Assembly (NCBI GenBank): GCA_028282805.1 | Contig: JANQHD010000028.1 | Coordinates: forward strand, 124,001 to 188,000 | Direction: 5' to 3' | DNA from: Phycisphaeraceae bacterium | GTDB taxonomy: Bacteria > Planctomycetota > Phycisphaerae > Phycisphaerales > Zrk34 | DNA length: 64,000 nucleotides | Part shown: positions 19,342-59,626 of the stretch, in pieces | Numbering within the stretch: position 1 is the stretch's first letter | Layout of the letters: every line of letters starts with the position of its first letter | Program-made: the position numbers and the translations under genes | Notes under the pieces: generated by a model | The model's input: only the letters and a program-made list of their open reading frames with translations | Told to the model about the DNA's origin: nothing | Databases searched by the model: none

Positions 19342-20013
19342 ATGATTGAAGCAGTGATCTTTGATTTCGACGGCCTCGTGATCGAGACCGAGATGCCCCT
19401 GTACAACACTTGGCGACGCGCCTTTCAGGAGCGCGGCGTCGACCTGCCGATCGGGCGCTGGATCGAGGTGCTCGGCCGGTCGTCGGTCTACTTCGATTTC
19501 CCCGGCCACCTCGAAGAGCTGTCCGGCCGACCCGTCGACCGCGACGCGCTCCAGCAACAGGTGCGCACCGAGGCGCTGGACGTGATCGAACAGCAGCCCG
19601 TGCTGCCGGGCGTTATCGAACGGCTCGACGAGATCGAAGCCATGGGCCTCGTCGTCGGCTTGTGCTCCGGCTCGTCGCGCGAGTGGATCGCCGGCCACCT
19701 GGGGCGGTTGGGCCTGCTCAGCCGGTTCCCGCAGCGCATCTGTCGCGACGACACCGTGCTGCACAAGCCCGAGCCGGCCCCGTACCTGAAGACCGCCGAG
19801 CGGTTGGACGTCGAGCCGAGCCGGTGTTTGGTGTTCGAAGACTCGCCCAACGGGGTTCACTCGGCCAAGGCCGCGGGCATGCTCGCCGTGGCCGTGCCCA
19901 CCGAGATGACCCGCAACGAGGATTTCAGCGCCGCCGACCTCGTCGTCAGCTCCCTGGCGGAGATGACCCTCGCCGAGATGCTCAACAAGCTGGTTGTCCC
20001 GGCCGAGGAATGA
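19342..20013 (+). CDS. HAD-superfamily hydrolase, beta-phosphoglucomutase/phosphatase-like
   Basis: A 223-residue HAD protein with the helical cap of subfamily IA. Motif I is F-D-F-D-G-L-V (nucleophile Asp8 and Asp10), motif II is L-C-S-G-S-S, motif III Lys is in H-K-P-E-P-A-P-Y, and motif IV is F-E-D-S-P-N-G-V. The motif IV form is typical of phosphatases of sugar phosphates and of beta-phosphoglucomutases. The position 10 bases after rpe suggests a sugar-phosphate substrate, but this is not proven. The ileS leader promoter starts inside its last codons. Confidence 0.92.
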   Translation: MIEAVIFDFDGLVIETEMPLYNTWRRAFQERGVDLPIGRWIEVLGRSSVYFDFPGHLEELSGRPVDRDALQQQVRTEALDVIEQQPVLPGVIERLDEIEAMGLVVGLCSGSSREWIAGHLGRLGLLSRFPQRICRDDTVLHKPEPAPYLKTAERLDVEPSRCLVFEDSPNGVHSAKAAGMLAVAVPTEMTRNEDFSAADLVVSSLAEMTLAEMLNKLVVPAEE

Positions 20014-20021
20014 TTTATACT
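19994..20021 (+). promoter_or_regulatory. Promoter of the ileS leader
   Basis: TTGTCC (19994-19999), 16-base spacer, TATACT (20016-20021). The expected start is about 20028, only a few bases before the ATG of the leader peptide at 20032. The -35 lies within the end of the HAD gene. Confidence 0.65.
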
Positions 20022-20031
20022 GGACACTGAC

Positions 20032-20088
20032 ATGCACAAGACGACCGACAGCATCGCCATTATCATTACCTCTCCGAAAAACCGGTAG
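20032..20088 (+). CDS. Isoleucine-rich leader peptide of the ileS attenuator
   Basis: An 18-codon reading frame whose middle reads S-I-A-I-I-I-T, four Ile codons in five (ATC, GCC, ATT, ATC, ATT), ending in TAG at 20086. No Shine-Dalgarno is visible and the 5' UTR would be about four bases, so translation is probably leaderless. The stop codon lies inside the antiterminator arm 20083-20091. Ribosome stalling on the Ile codons when charged tRNA-Ile is short would control folding of the RNA downstream. This logic is known from ilv, his and trp leaders; here the controlled gene is ileS. No other reason for the Ile cluster is apparent. Confidence 0.8.
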   Translation: MHKTTDSIAIIITSPKNR

Positions 20089-20142
20089 GGCGGCGATCTG
20101 TACACCAAGACCCCCAAGCCCTGCCGAAAAGCAGGGTTTTTT
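20053..20142 (+). promoter_or_regulatory. Transcription attenuator controlling ileS
   Basis: Three alternative helices can be read directly. (1:2) ATCGCC at 20053-20058 pairs with GGCGAT at 20092-20097, with weaker pairing inside of 20069-20076 with 20083-20090. (2:3) CGGTAGGGC at 20083-20091 pairs with GCCCTGCCG at 20118-20126, nine pairs including one U-G. (3:4) the terminator 20116-20139. Helices 2:3 and 3:4 exclude each other. A ribosome stalled at the Ile codons breaks 1:2 and frees 2:3 (read-through); one that reaches the UAG covers region 2 and allows termination. Confidence 0.78.
20119..20142 (+). terminator. Attenuator terminator upstream of ileS
   Basis: CCCTGC (20119-20124), loop CGAAAA, GCAGGG (20131-20136), then six T. 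The stem extends by A-U, A-U and G-U pairs at its base (20116-20118). It lies 45 bases before the ileS ATG. Confidence 0.92.
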
Positions 20143-20150
20143 ATTACGTC

Positions 20151-20185
20151 ACTCAAGCCTCACCCCTCAAGCCTTAAGCCTCAAC
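20151..20185 (+). repeat. Heptamer array directly before the ileS start
   Basis: Five 7-bp units (ACTCAAG, CCTCACC, CCTCAAG, CCTTAAG, CCTCAAC) that end one base before the ATG. It takes the place where a Shine-Dalgarno would be; none is present. Confidence 0.8.
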
Positions 20186-20186
20186 C

Positions 20187-23138
20187 ATGACTGAACAAGC
20201 CGACAAACGCACGTACAAGAAGACGCTGAACCTGCCCAAGACGAGCTTCGCGATGAAGGCGAACCTCGTGCAGCGTGAGCCGGAGTTCCAGAAGCGCTGG
20301 GCGAAGATCGACCTGTACCGCAAGATGCGCCAGCAGGACCACCCCGCCGGCCCGTTCGTCTTCCACGACGGCCCGCCCTACGCCAACGGCGACATCCACA
20401 TCGGCCACCTGCTCAACAAGGTGCTCAAGGACTTCGTCGTCCGCACCCGCACCATGGCCGGCCACGACGTCGAGTTCATCCCCGGCTGGGACTGCCACGG
20501 CCTGCCCATCGAGCACAAGGTGATGAAAGACCTCGGCGACGCGGCGCGCGGCATGGAGCCGTTGAAGATCCGCTACAAGTGCAAGGCCTACGCAGAGAAG
20601 TACGTCAAGCTCCAGAAGGGCCAGATGCTCCGCCTCGGCACCGTCGCCAACTACGACGAGCCGTACATCACGATGGACCCGGCCTACGAAGCGGGCGTGA
20701 TGGACGTGTTCGCCGACCTGGTCGACCGCGGGTTGGTGTACCGCGCACTCAAGCCCGTGCACTGGTCGATCGCCAACCGCACCGCCCTCGCCGACGCCGA
20801 ACTCGAATACGAAGACCGCGAAGACACGAGCGTTTACGTTCTCTTCGAGATTACGAATACATCAGACTTGCCGGCTGAGCTCGATGCACCTGCAAGTAAA
20901 CGTATCGATTTCGTCATATGGACGACAACACCTTGGACGTTGCCCGCAAATATGGCGGTCGCTGTTTCACACAGTAACTTTCTGTATTGCTTGTATGAAT
21001 ACGTGAATGGGTCGGGAGAAACACGATATCTGATTGCCAATGACAATCTGGCAGAGGGTATTGGTGGATGTAGTAGTTTCTTTGAAGCCGCTGGTATATC
21101 GGAGTATAGAAAGCTAGGCACTTGTGCTGGATCGCAACTGGAAGAAGCCAGAATTCGTTATCAGCATCCATTTATTGCTCGTACTTCGCCCGTTGTTTGC
21201 GCAGATTATGTGACAGCTGAGGACGGAACCGGTTTGGTACATACCGCTCCGGGGCACGGTGTTGAAGATTTTCAGACCGGGCGTTTTCGTCGATTGCATT
21301 TCAAAAACAGGCAAATAGGGTCTGATGTTGAATGCATACTGCCGAGTGAACATGAACCGGTTGGCCTCAACGAATACGACGTGTACTGCCCCGTGCTCGA
21401 AGACGGCACGTTCGACGACACCGCGCCCGACTGGCTGCGGGGCGAAAGCGTGTGGGATGGCAACGACAGGGTCGTCGACCACCTGCGCGACAGCGGCCAC
21501 CTGTTCCACGCCAACAAGTTTGTGCACAGCTACCCCCACGACTGGCGCGGCAAGACGCCCGTGATCTTCCGCGCCACCAGCCAGTGGTTCATCGGCGTCG
21601 ACGAGGCGTTTAGCGACGGCCCGCAGGGCCGGGCTTCCCTGCGCCGCCGCGCGCTCGACATCACCGCCGACACGATCGACTTCGTGCCGGCGTGGGGCCG
21701 CAACCGCATGCGCGGCATGCTGGAAAGCCGACCCGATTGGTGCATCAGCCGGCAGCGGTCGTGGGGCCTGCCGATCCCGGCGTTCGTGCACAAGCAGACC
21801 GGCGAGCCGCTGCTGACCGCCGAGTCGGTGCGGCACGTCGCCGACCTCGTGCGCAAACAGGGCGGCGACGTGTGGTTCAAGTCCAGCGCCGCCGAGCTGC
21901 TCGCCGGCTGCCCGGGCGTCGACGCCCCCGACGCCTACGAGAAGGGCGGCGACACGTTCGACGTGTGGTTCGAGTCCGGCTCGTCGTGGCACGCGGTCAT
22001 GCGCCAGCGCGAACTGGCGCGCCCCGACGGCGCCCACACCGACCTCTACCTCGAAGGCTCCGACCAGCACCGCGGGTGGTTCCAGACCTCGCTACTGCTC
22101 GGCCTGGGCGCGACGGGCCGGTCGCCCTTCGCCACGGTGCTCACGCACGGGTTCATGGTCGACAAGCACGGCAAGAAGATGAGCAAGTCCGGCGGCAACG
22201 CGATCAACGTCGAAGACCTGCTCAAAGAATACGGCACGGACGTGTGCCGGTGGTGGGTCGCGGGCCTGGCCTACGACAACGACATCAAGGTCGACTGGGA
22301 CTTCTTCAAGCTCGCCGGCGAAGAGTACCGCAAGGTGCGCAACACCATCCGCTTCCTGCTCAGCAACCTGCCCGACCCCCGGAACTCCGACCCCCAGAAC
22401 GGTCGCCGGGAGATGACCAGCGACGACCTGCACTCGGTCGACGCGTGGGCGATGGCGGAGCTCGGCAAGCTGATCACCAACGTGAGCCAAGCCTACGACC
22501 GCTACGAGTACCGCCGGGCGAGCGAGGCGATCTACAACTTCTGCAACGACGCGATGAGCAGCGTGTACCTCGCGGCGGTGAAGGACCGGCTGTACTGCGA
22601 TGCGCCCGACAGCGACCGCCGACGCCGCACGCAGACGGTGATCTACGACATCGCCGAGCGTTTGATCCGGCTGGTCGCGCCGATCCTCGTGCACACCGCA
22701 GACGAGGCGTACCTCGCGCTGCACGGGCTGGACCACAAGTCCGAGCGTAGCGTGCACACCGAGCCGCTGCCACAGCCGTTCGAGCCCGTCGTGGCCGAGG
22801 GTTGGCCCGAGGCGATGGGCCTGCGCGACCGCGTGCTCAAGGCGGTGGAAGACGCGCGGCACAACCGCAACCTCGACAACCCGCTCGACGTGGGTGTGAC
22901 GGTCATGCTGGCGCCCGAGCAGTACGCCCCGCTCAAGCCGCTCGAGGCCGAGCTGGCCGACCTGTGCGGCGTCAGCCGGTTCGAGCTGACCGAAAACGGC
23001 AACGAGACGATCGACATCGCCGACCTGACCGACGCGCCCCGCTGCGAACGCTCGTGGAAACGCGACGGTACCGTCAAGCAACGCAGCGACGGCGGCTACC
23101 TCTCCGACCGCGACGCCGCGGCCCTGGGTCTCGGATAA
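20187..23138 (+). CDS. ileS: Isoleucyl-tRNA synthetase
   Basis: A 983-residue class I synthetase that charges tRNA-Ile. The HIGH motif is H-I-G-H at residues 71-74 and K-M-S-K-S is at 664-668. The CP1 editing domain has W-T-T-T-P-W-T-L-P-A-N (about 245) and G-T-G-L-V-H-T-A-P-G-H-G (about 347), so post-transfer editing of Val-tRNA should be intact. The editing domain is encoded by AT-richer DNA than the rest (see 20841-21365). The C-terminal zinc knuckle is degenerate: only one cysteine remains in A-P-R-C-E-R-S-W. N-L-P-D-P-R-N-S-D-P-Q-N may be another in-frame heptamer remnant. Expression is predicted to be set by the leader attenuator. Confidence 0.97.
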   Translation: MTEQADKRTYKKTLNLPKTSFAMKANLVQREPEFQKRWAKIDLYRKMRQQDHPAGPFVFHDGPPYANGDIHIGHLLNKVLKDFVVRTRTMAGHDVEFIPGWDCHGLPIEHKVMKDLGDAARGMEPLKIRYKCKAYAEKYVKLQKGQMLRLGTVANYDEPYITMDPAYEAGVMDVFADLVDRGLVYRALKPVHWSIANRTALADAELEYEDREDTSVYVLFEITNTSDLPAELDAPASKRIDFVIWTTTPWTLPANMAVAVSHSNFLYCLYEYVNGSGETRYLIANDNLAEGIGGCSSFFEAAGISEYRKLGTCAGSQLEEARIRYQHPFIARTSPVVCADYVTAEDGTGLVHTAPGHGVEDFQTGRFRRLHFKNRQIGSDVECILPSEHEPVGLNEYDVYCPVLEDGTFDDTAPDWLRGESVWDGNDRVVDHLRDSGHLFHANKFVHSYPHDWRGKTPVIFRATSQWFIGVDEAFSDGPQGRASLRRRALDITADTIDFVPAWGRNRMRGMLESRPDWCISRQRSWGLPIPAFVHKQTGEPLLTAESVRHVADLVRKQGGDVWFKSSAAELLAGCPGVDAPDAYEKGGDTFDVWFESGSSWHAVMRQRELARPDGAHTDLYLEGSDQHRGWFQTSLLLGLGATGRSPFATVLTHGFMVDKHGKKMSKSGGNAINVEDLLKEYGTDVCRWWVAGLAYDNDIKVDWDFFKLAGEEYRKVRNTIRFLLSNLPDPRNSDPQNGRREMTSDDLHSVDAWAMAELGKLITNVSQAYDRYEYRRASEAIYNFCNDAMSSVYLAAVKDRLYCDAPDSDRRRRTQTVIYDIAERLIRLVAPILVHTADEAYLALHGLDHKSERSVHTEPLPQPFEPVVAEGWPEAMGLRDRVLKAVEDARHNRNLDNPLDVGVTVMLAPEQYAPLKPLEAELADLCGVSRFELTENGNETIDIADLTDAPRCERSWKRDGTVKQRSDGGYLSDRDAAALGLG
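20841..21365 (+). other. AT-rich mosaic segment of ileS coinciding with the editing domain
   Basis: My hand count gives about 47 % GC over 20881-21360, against about 65 % on each side. Codons rare elsewhere in the window (ATA, AGA, CTA, TAT, GTT) are frequent here. The edges fall near residues 219 and 393, close to the limits of the CP1 editing domain. The reading frame is continuous and the editing motifs are present, so this looks like gene conversion from a lower-GC donor rather than decay. Confidence 0.75.
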
Positions 23139-58941: not shown

Positions 58942-58993
58942 GTGACCGCTCCTTTCGGGTGTGTGGCAGATGGTAACGTGTTGTGTGAAGAAT

Positions 58994-59019
58994 AAAAAAG
59001 CCCCGCGGGGTGGCGGGGC
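58994..59019 (-). terminator. Terminator of the prs-rplY-pth-rpsF-ssb-rplI unit
   Basis: On the minus strand GCCCCGC (59019-59013), loop CACCCC, GCGGGGC (59006-59000), then six T (58999-58994). Perfect 7-bp stem right after rplI. Confidence 0.95.
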
Positions 59020-59035
59020 GGGGGCTATATAGGGG

Positions 59036-59626
59036 TTACAGGTTGTTGTCGGCCTCGGCGGGCACGCGGAAGGATTCTTCCTTCGGCGCTTCGGCCTCGG
59101 CTTCGCCCTCGACCTTGGCTTCGGCTTCCGCCTCGGCCTCTTCGAGCAGTTCCTCGGCGGGCTTGTCGGACACGACCCACAGCTTGATCTCGGTGGCCAG
59201 GTCGTCGTCGACCTTGATCGGGATCATGTAGCTGTCGAGGCGCTTGATCGGGTCGCCGATGCGCACGTCGCGCTCGTTGATCGCGAAGCCCTCTTCACGC
59301 AGCGCATCGGCGATGTCGGCTTGCGTGACCGAGCCGAACAACACGCCCGACTCGTTGGCGGCGCGTTGCAGGGTGATCTCGTGTTCTTCGAGCGAGGCGA
59401 TGAGGCGCTCGCGCTGCTCGCGGAGTTCGCGGAGCTGCCGCTCGACCTCGGCGCGGCGCTCCTCGACGGCGGCGCGGGCCGCGTCGGTCGGTTGGGTGGC
59501 TAGGCCCATCGGCAACAGGTAGTTGCGGGCGTAGCCGGCCTTGACGGAAACGACGTCGCCGACGATGCCGAGCTTCTCGACGTTCTCCAGCAGCATCAGC
59601 GAGACGCTCTTCTTCGATGATGTCAT
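59036..59626 (-). CDS. rplI: 50S ribosomal protein L9
   Basis: A 196-residue L9, longer than the usual 148. The N-terminal domain has the signature L-E-N-V-E-K-L-G-I-V-G-D-V-V-S-V-K-A-G-Y-A-R-N-Y-L split over residues 13-37, a long central helix (R-A-A-V-E-E-R-R-A-E-V-E-R-Q-L) and the C-terminal rRNA-binding domain. After it comes an acidic tail of about 40 residues (E-A-E-A-E-A-K-V-E-G-E-A-E-A-E) not found in model bacteria. AGGAGGA precedes the ATG. The usual neighbour rpsR is absent between ssb and rplI. Confidence 0.96.
   Translation of the reverse strand: MTSSKKSVSLMLLENVEKLGIVGDVVSVKAGYARNYLLPMGLATQPTDAARAAVEERRAEVERQLRELREQRERLIASLEEHEITLQRAANESGVLFGSVTQADIADALREEGFAINERDVRIGDPIKRLDSYMIPIKVDDDLATEIKLWVVSDKPAEELLEEAEAEAEAKVEGEAEAEAPKEESFRVPAEADNNL

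Follow-up and report, generated by a model that had tools for sequence, protein, structure and literature searches.

A predicted isoleucine leader-peptide attenuator before ileS and cimA in the planctomycete class Phycisphaerae

Anatomy of the region upstream of ileS

The window, i.e., the whole stretch of 64,000 nucleotides analyzed here, comes from a Phycisphaeraceae bacterium (assembly GCA_028282805.1, contig JANQHD010000028.1, positions 124,001 to 188,000). It encodes the isoleucyl-tRNA synthetase, whose gene ileS (20187..23138, + strand) is single copy in the genome and whose product scores 806 bits against TIGR00392, for a cut-off of 621. The features of interest lie just upstream, between 19994 and 20186, all on the + strand. 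A sigma-70-like promoter, TTGTCC-N16-TATACT (19994..20021), can be read from the sequence, with the -35 box TTGTCC at 19994-19999, a spacer of 16 nt and the -10 box TATACT at 20016-20021; it overlaps the preceding HAD-family gene at its 3' end. It is followed by a putative leader peptide gene of 18 codons (20032..20088), encoding MHKTTDSIAIIITSPKNR between an ATG at 20032 and a TAG at 20086-20088. The presumed regulatory codons of this frame, I-A-I-I-I, span 20053..20067, and their first six bases, ATCGCC (20053-20058), double as arm 1 of a possible 1:2, or protector, helix. The partner of arm 1, GGCGAT (20092..20097), is the one given by the minimum free energy (MFE) fold.

The two mutually exclusive helices of the element share arm 3, GCCCTGCCG (20118..20126). 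In the antiterminator (2:3), arm 3 is complementary to arm 2, CGGTAGGGC (20083..20091), whereas in the terminator (3:4) it is part of an intrinsic hairpin followed by a T-run (20116..20142, with the stem at about 20116-20139 and T6 at 20137-20142). The stretch between the terminator and ileS (20146-20186) consists of consecutive repeats similar to CTCAAGCCT and has no Shine-Dalgarno site. An earlier note, made from the sequence of the window alone, had described the promoter, the leader, the arms, the terminator and ileS, and we find all of them at the positions it gave. It had also located the leader stop codon inside the antiterminator arm, and the TAG at 20086-20088 does fall within 20083-20091.

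Pattern scans of this region are of uneven value. The promoter scan returned 1 site for 0.2 expected, and the terminator scan by itself returned 1 for 1.1 expected, i.e., not above chance. The case that the element exceeds chance therefore comes from its conservation, as a covariance model trained exclusively on cimA leaders from other genera matches the window (see below), and not from the terminator scan. When the RNA of the window is folded, the whole leader is predicted to form the terminator and the 1:2 hairpin, and a leader shortened to mimic a ribosome placed over the Ile codons is predicted to form the antiterminator.

Conservation before ileS and cimA

The earlier note had proposed to look for conservation in relatives. 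Using the IleRS protein as a query, we located ileS in 301 genomes of the order Phycisphaerales and read the upstream regions. We examined 51 ileS loci of the two families nearest to the window and found the same anatomy before 25 of them, one of these (L135) being assigned by leader similarity as its contig ends there. The element is thus missing at about half of the ileS genes of these families, and 5 of the 7 ileS genes in the window's own family lack it. Other ileS leaders found ahead of the same arms and terminator include MQRHRINIIGIIIIDPNRR, MPNAQLTLAIIISNPDQR, MTHAQPTIIAIIISDPDQR and MNTQISIIAEIIISAA.

We then have several ileS leaders of other kinds. Four candidates in families f2 and f5 (L033, L037, L079 and L080) show alternating Ile residues (PIRITMPR, IRIFIRIMLPR and ISIRIGITMPH, each up to the stop) and a TGA stop within a CCCC-TGAGGGC arm; they are possibly a diverged form of the element. 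In a Sedimentisphaerales MAG (L183) and in another Phycisphaerae MAG (L191), the Ile-rich leaders SKAITGIAIIIAIIIGGPG and ETSRIAIIIAIIIGVTP, each ending at a stop codon, occur about 230-250 nt upstream of ileS, with hairpins unrelated to those of the window.

A covariance model built from 21 ileS leaders and run over whole genomes gave further strong matches, which revealed a second gene, absent from the earlier note. Among the 40 matched regions that were fetched, 37 were assigned to cimA, recognized by the first residues of its product, and 3 to ileS, the assignment of a few being based on the leader and not on the downstream gene, and no other gene was found where the downstream sequence was readable. 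Citramalate synthase is the first enzyme on the route from pyruvate to isoleucine and catalyzes its committed step. Both genes associated with the element, ileS and cimA, thus belong to the metabolism of isoleucine, the amino acid of the leader. The genome of the window has such a cimA leader, MSHSSIIAEIIMIPSHGR, and its CimA is a citramalate synthase by TIGR00977 (656 bits, cut-off 450). In this genome, which is 99.8% complete, no protein scores better against the bacterial LeuA profile (TIGR00973) than CimA, which stays below the cut-off, and no separate LeuA was found at E 1e-60. Another order of the class (families f11, f17 and f28) has 14 elements before cimA and 1 before ileS. Outside the class Phycisphaerae, the covariance-model search gave weak matches only. 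In one planctomycete from outside the class (L275, about 1500-1615), a leader ending in RIIGIIIG and a stop codon, with a different set of hairpins, precedes cimA.

For a held-out comparison, a model was built from 35 cimA leaders, with the ileS leaders and the window's genus excluded. It matches the window at 20038-20144 with 75.3 bits (E=1.2e-19). When the whole genome is ranked with this model, the ileS leader of the window comes best (7.2e-18) and the genome's own cimA leader second (5.2e-14), followed by a partial match at 4.5e-4. Weak terminator-only matches elsewhere in the genomes, including one at 58993-59054 of the window, were taken as ordinary terminators. We saw no sign of concerted evolution between the ileS and cimA copies, as their identity is 52.9% within the same genome vs 52.1% between genomes.

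Leader codons and initiation

Isoleucine accounts for 360 of the 1376 codons (26%) in 76 leaders, of which 212 are ATT, 135 ATC and 13 ATA, and the third base of these codons varies between T and C. They peak at 6-9 and at 12 codons before the stop, which is TAG in 72 of the 76 leaders. ATH triplets number 360, 19 and 14 in the three frames, i.e., 33 of 393 are out of frame. In 61 of 76 leaders, the start is preceded by a -10-like hexamer whose end lies 6-10 nt away. Both counts are somewhat inflated, since Ile content or the -10 box helped to decide some of the starts and frames. Of random positions, 1.5% have such a hexamer 5-12 nt upstream.

In the window, 10 nt separate the end of the -10 box from the leader ATG, without a Shine-Dalgarno site, so that, given the position of the -10 box, the leader peptide would have essentially no 5' UTR. 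A Shine-Dalgarno-like site occurs in 8 of the 76 leaders. Because the leader start follows the -10 box by 6-10 nt in most cases, these leaders are probably leaderless, i.e., read without a 5' UTR, a feature that the earlier note did not mention. In Planctomycetes and some other phyla, genes that lack a Shine-Dalgarno site have been linked to leaderless mRNA and/or to ribosomal protein S1 (PMC5397173).

Alternative helices

The 2:3 and 3:4 helices, which the earlier note had derived from one sequence, are conserved with compensatory changes in relatives. In an alignment of 61 sequences, 4 of the 10 terminator pairs show compensatory changes, and the covariation score of the terminator is above all 500 shuffles and far above slid controls. 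The antiterminator arms are nearly invariant and covary in no more than a few clade-level changes; in the 21 ileS leaders alone, they do not vary. Double-change cells of the antiterminator amount to 17, vs 9.0 in shuffles. An antiterminator C-G pair has become G-C in the second order, where 14 of 15 cases have GGG instead of CGG as the last codon ahead of the stop and C instead of G in the partner. In two other leaders (L127 and L133), arm 3 has an A instead of a G, which makes an antiterminator U-G pair into U-A; arm 2 still pairs with the changed arm 3, and arm 4 changes to match.

A further helix between ATCGCC and GGCGAT had also been suggested. It is present in the sequence of the window, but its conservation is weaker: the members' own partners beat permuted ones, with 12 of 2000 permutations as good, and many members have no good helix.

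Folding of the 76 leaders gives a consistent picture if the order of events is considered. With arm 2 free and the polymerase just past arm 3, the antiterminator is the MFE structure in 75 of 76, and with a ribosome placed at the stop codon, the terminator is the MFE structure in 75 of 76. In the complete leader, folded without kinetic order, the antiterminator is the overall MFE structure in 31 of 76 only, and the switch must therefore act during transcription. Known attenuators likewise make their choice during transcription.

Counted from the first base of the codon in the P site, a ribosome reaches some 15-16 nt further downstream. By this geometry, the front of a ribosome paused at Ile8 to Ile12 is computed to lie near 20066-20078, clear of arm 2, which starts at 20083. 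Once the stop codon occupies the A site, the front would lie near 20099, with arm 2 and the GGCGAT segment covered.

Proposed mechanism and alternative explanations

We interpret the region as a ribosome-mediated transcription attenuator of the classical type, which would control ileS in response to charged tRNA-Ile, and put the probability of this reading at about 0.93 from the sequence evidence. The earlier note had proposed a peptide-leader attenuator for ileS, and this proposal is strengthened by relatives in many genera that keep both the Ile codons and the alternative helices. From this arrangement we infer a translated leader, on which stalling would decide between termination and read-through. 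The transcript would begin a few bases ahead of the leader ATG, and leader translation would set in nearly at the transcript's 5' end. When Ile-tRNA is plentiful, the ribosome would reach the TAG and cover arm 2, arm 3 would pair with arm 4, and RNA polymerase would stop at the T-run near 20142. When Ile-tRNA is scarce, the ribosome would stall on the Ile codons (front at about 20066-20078) and CGGTAGGGC would stay free; it could then pair with the newly made GCCCTGCCG, the terminator would not form, and ileS would be transcribed. The same switch is predicted to act on cimA. Hence, the element would almost certainly raise ileS and cimA when charged tRNA-Ile is short, and since the same device stands before cimA in the same genome, isoleucine synthesis and charging would be raised jointly.

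Other explanations were considered. The hairpin could serve only to end transcription of the HAD gene upstream, the short frame being a chance ORF, as the hairpin lies about 100 nt past the HAD stop codon and the terminator scan taken alone does not stand out. We regard this as very improbable because the element stays with ileS and cimA while upstream genes change, the HAD and RPE genes of the window being upstream of no other copy. Neither the Ile codons in the frame, nor the promoter-like site that the element has for itself, nor the match of the held-out model would be expected from the end of a HAD transcript. A protein that binds the near-invariant CGGTAGGGC and controls the terminator, with a minor role for the leader peptide, would account for a primary sequence that, in arms 2 and 3, is more conserved than pairing demands. 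Yet this invariance is explained by the pairing of arm 2 with arm 3, by the stop codon and by the pairing of arm 3 with arm 4, and where one of those letters changes, others follow. Since protein binding also leaves the conservation of Ile codons without a reason, we consider it very unlikely.

The element could finally be a T-box, or another riboswitch binding tRNA or a metabolite, and respond to isoleucine or tRNA-Ile by itself, with no need for a translated leader. Indeed, ileS is a common target of T-boxes in Gram-positives, and Actinobacteria have translational T-boxes before it (PMC1262725). Here, however, the distance from promoter to terminator is about 115 nt and leaves little room for a T-box, and the conserved features are in-frame codons and a stop codon. 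A search of Rfam, T-box included, gave no match to the element, neither in the window at gathering thresholds nor in ten related loci at E up to 1. We thus give very little weight to direct sensing and retain attenuation by a translated leader.

Threonine and leucine leaders

Leaders rich in other amino acids were also observed. In the genome of the window, thrS is preceded at a distance of about 360 nt by a Thr-rich leader, MNTLTTTTTATTTTLTRGAGGL (L294, in G000:C32), and a GC-rich terminator, GGCCGCCC...GGGCGGCCGTTTTC, lies between the two. Two other loci of the class (L267 and L271, at about 1495-1610 in the orientation of the match) encode the leaders MHRPTTTTTTTTATRHRG and MPRPTTTTTTTTETRPRG, with eight consecutive Thr codons. 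There, TATACT stands just before the ATG, and the leader is followed by a terminator and by an ORF that resembles thrS, as judged by its N-terminal sequence; this ORF is a 110-aa fragment without NCBIfam match. Leu-rich leaders with terminators precede leuA in the same order (L281, MQIIPPIHAAATLPLAGLLLLGAHAG, with arms TGGATAGGGC/GCCCTGTCCA) and in a genome from outside the class (L265, MLNGSLKLLLLSPSCGRE). All these Thr and Leu leaders end at a stop codon.

The Thr leaders before thrS and the Leu leaders before leuA suggest a broader use of attenuators. On balance, we lean slightly towards the view that, in Phycisphaerae, leaderless leader-peptide attenuators with the stop codon in the antiterminator arm are general for amino-acid genes (Ile for ileS and cimA, Thr for thrS, Leu for leuA), in the role that T-boxes have in Firmicutes.

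Comparison with known systems

In the open literature, we found no leader-peptide attenuator for ileS or for cimA (citramalate synthase) and none in planctomycetes, in line with the earlier note, which knew of none for ileS in this group; an earlier prediction may nonetheless exist. The mechanism would be textbook attenuation, and what is apparently new are the genes, the phylum and the two-gene isoleucine regulon. We rate the stop-in-arm layout and the probable leaderless start as traits of the lineage. These results give amino-acid control in a little-studied phylum a concrete, testable form, in which one switch would tie the citramalate route of isoleucine synthesis to tRNA charging with isoleucine. 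They also supply a covariance model for an RNA family missing from Rfam.

The closest parallels are the attenuators of trp, his, leu, ilv and pheST (Yanofsky type), which have a leader rich in the regulating residue, an aminoacyl-tRNA signal and an antiterminator 2:3 opposed to a terminator 3:4, as proposed here. Unlike them, the element of Planctomycetota is associated with ileS and cimA, has its stop codon inside the antiterminator arm, and its leader gene probably lacks a 5' UTR. The actinobacterial T-box of ileS (PMC1262725) likewise provides RNA control of ileS by tRNA-Ile charging; it binds the tRNA directly and hides the Shine-Dalgarno sequence, whereas here a translated leader would act on a transcription terminator.

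Leaderless leader peptides have been described in Streptomyces lividans (leuL, trpL, ilvL and thrL, and including those of leuS, trpS and thrS; PMC8079986) and in Sinorhizobium meliloti (trpL, or rnTrpL; PMC7298713), and PMC13236596 cites mycobacterial Cys attenuators of this kind. In these systems too, the peptide is read at or near the very 5' end, and some control aminoacyl-tRNA synthetases (leuS, trpS, thrS), as is predicted here for ileS. The element is also a natural case for asking whether attenuation timed by the ribosome can work with leaderless initiation beyond Actinobacteria and Alphaproteobacteria. It differs from the leaders of Actinobacteria and S. meliloti in its phylum, amino acid and genes, and in having a conserved terminator/antiterminator pair in nearly every member.
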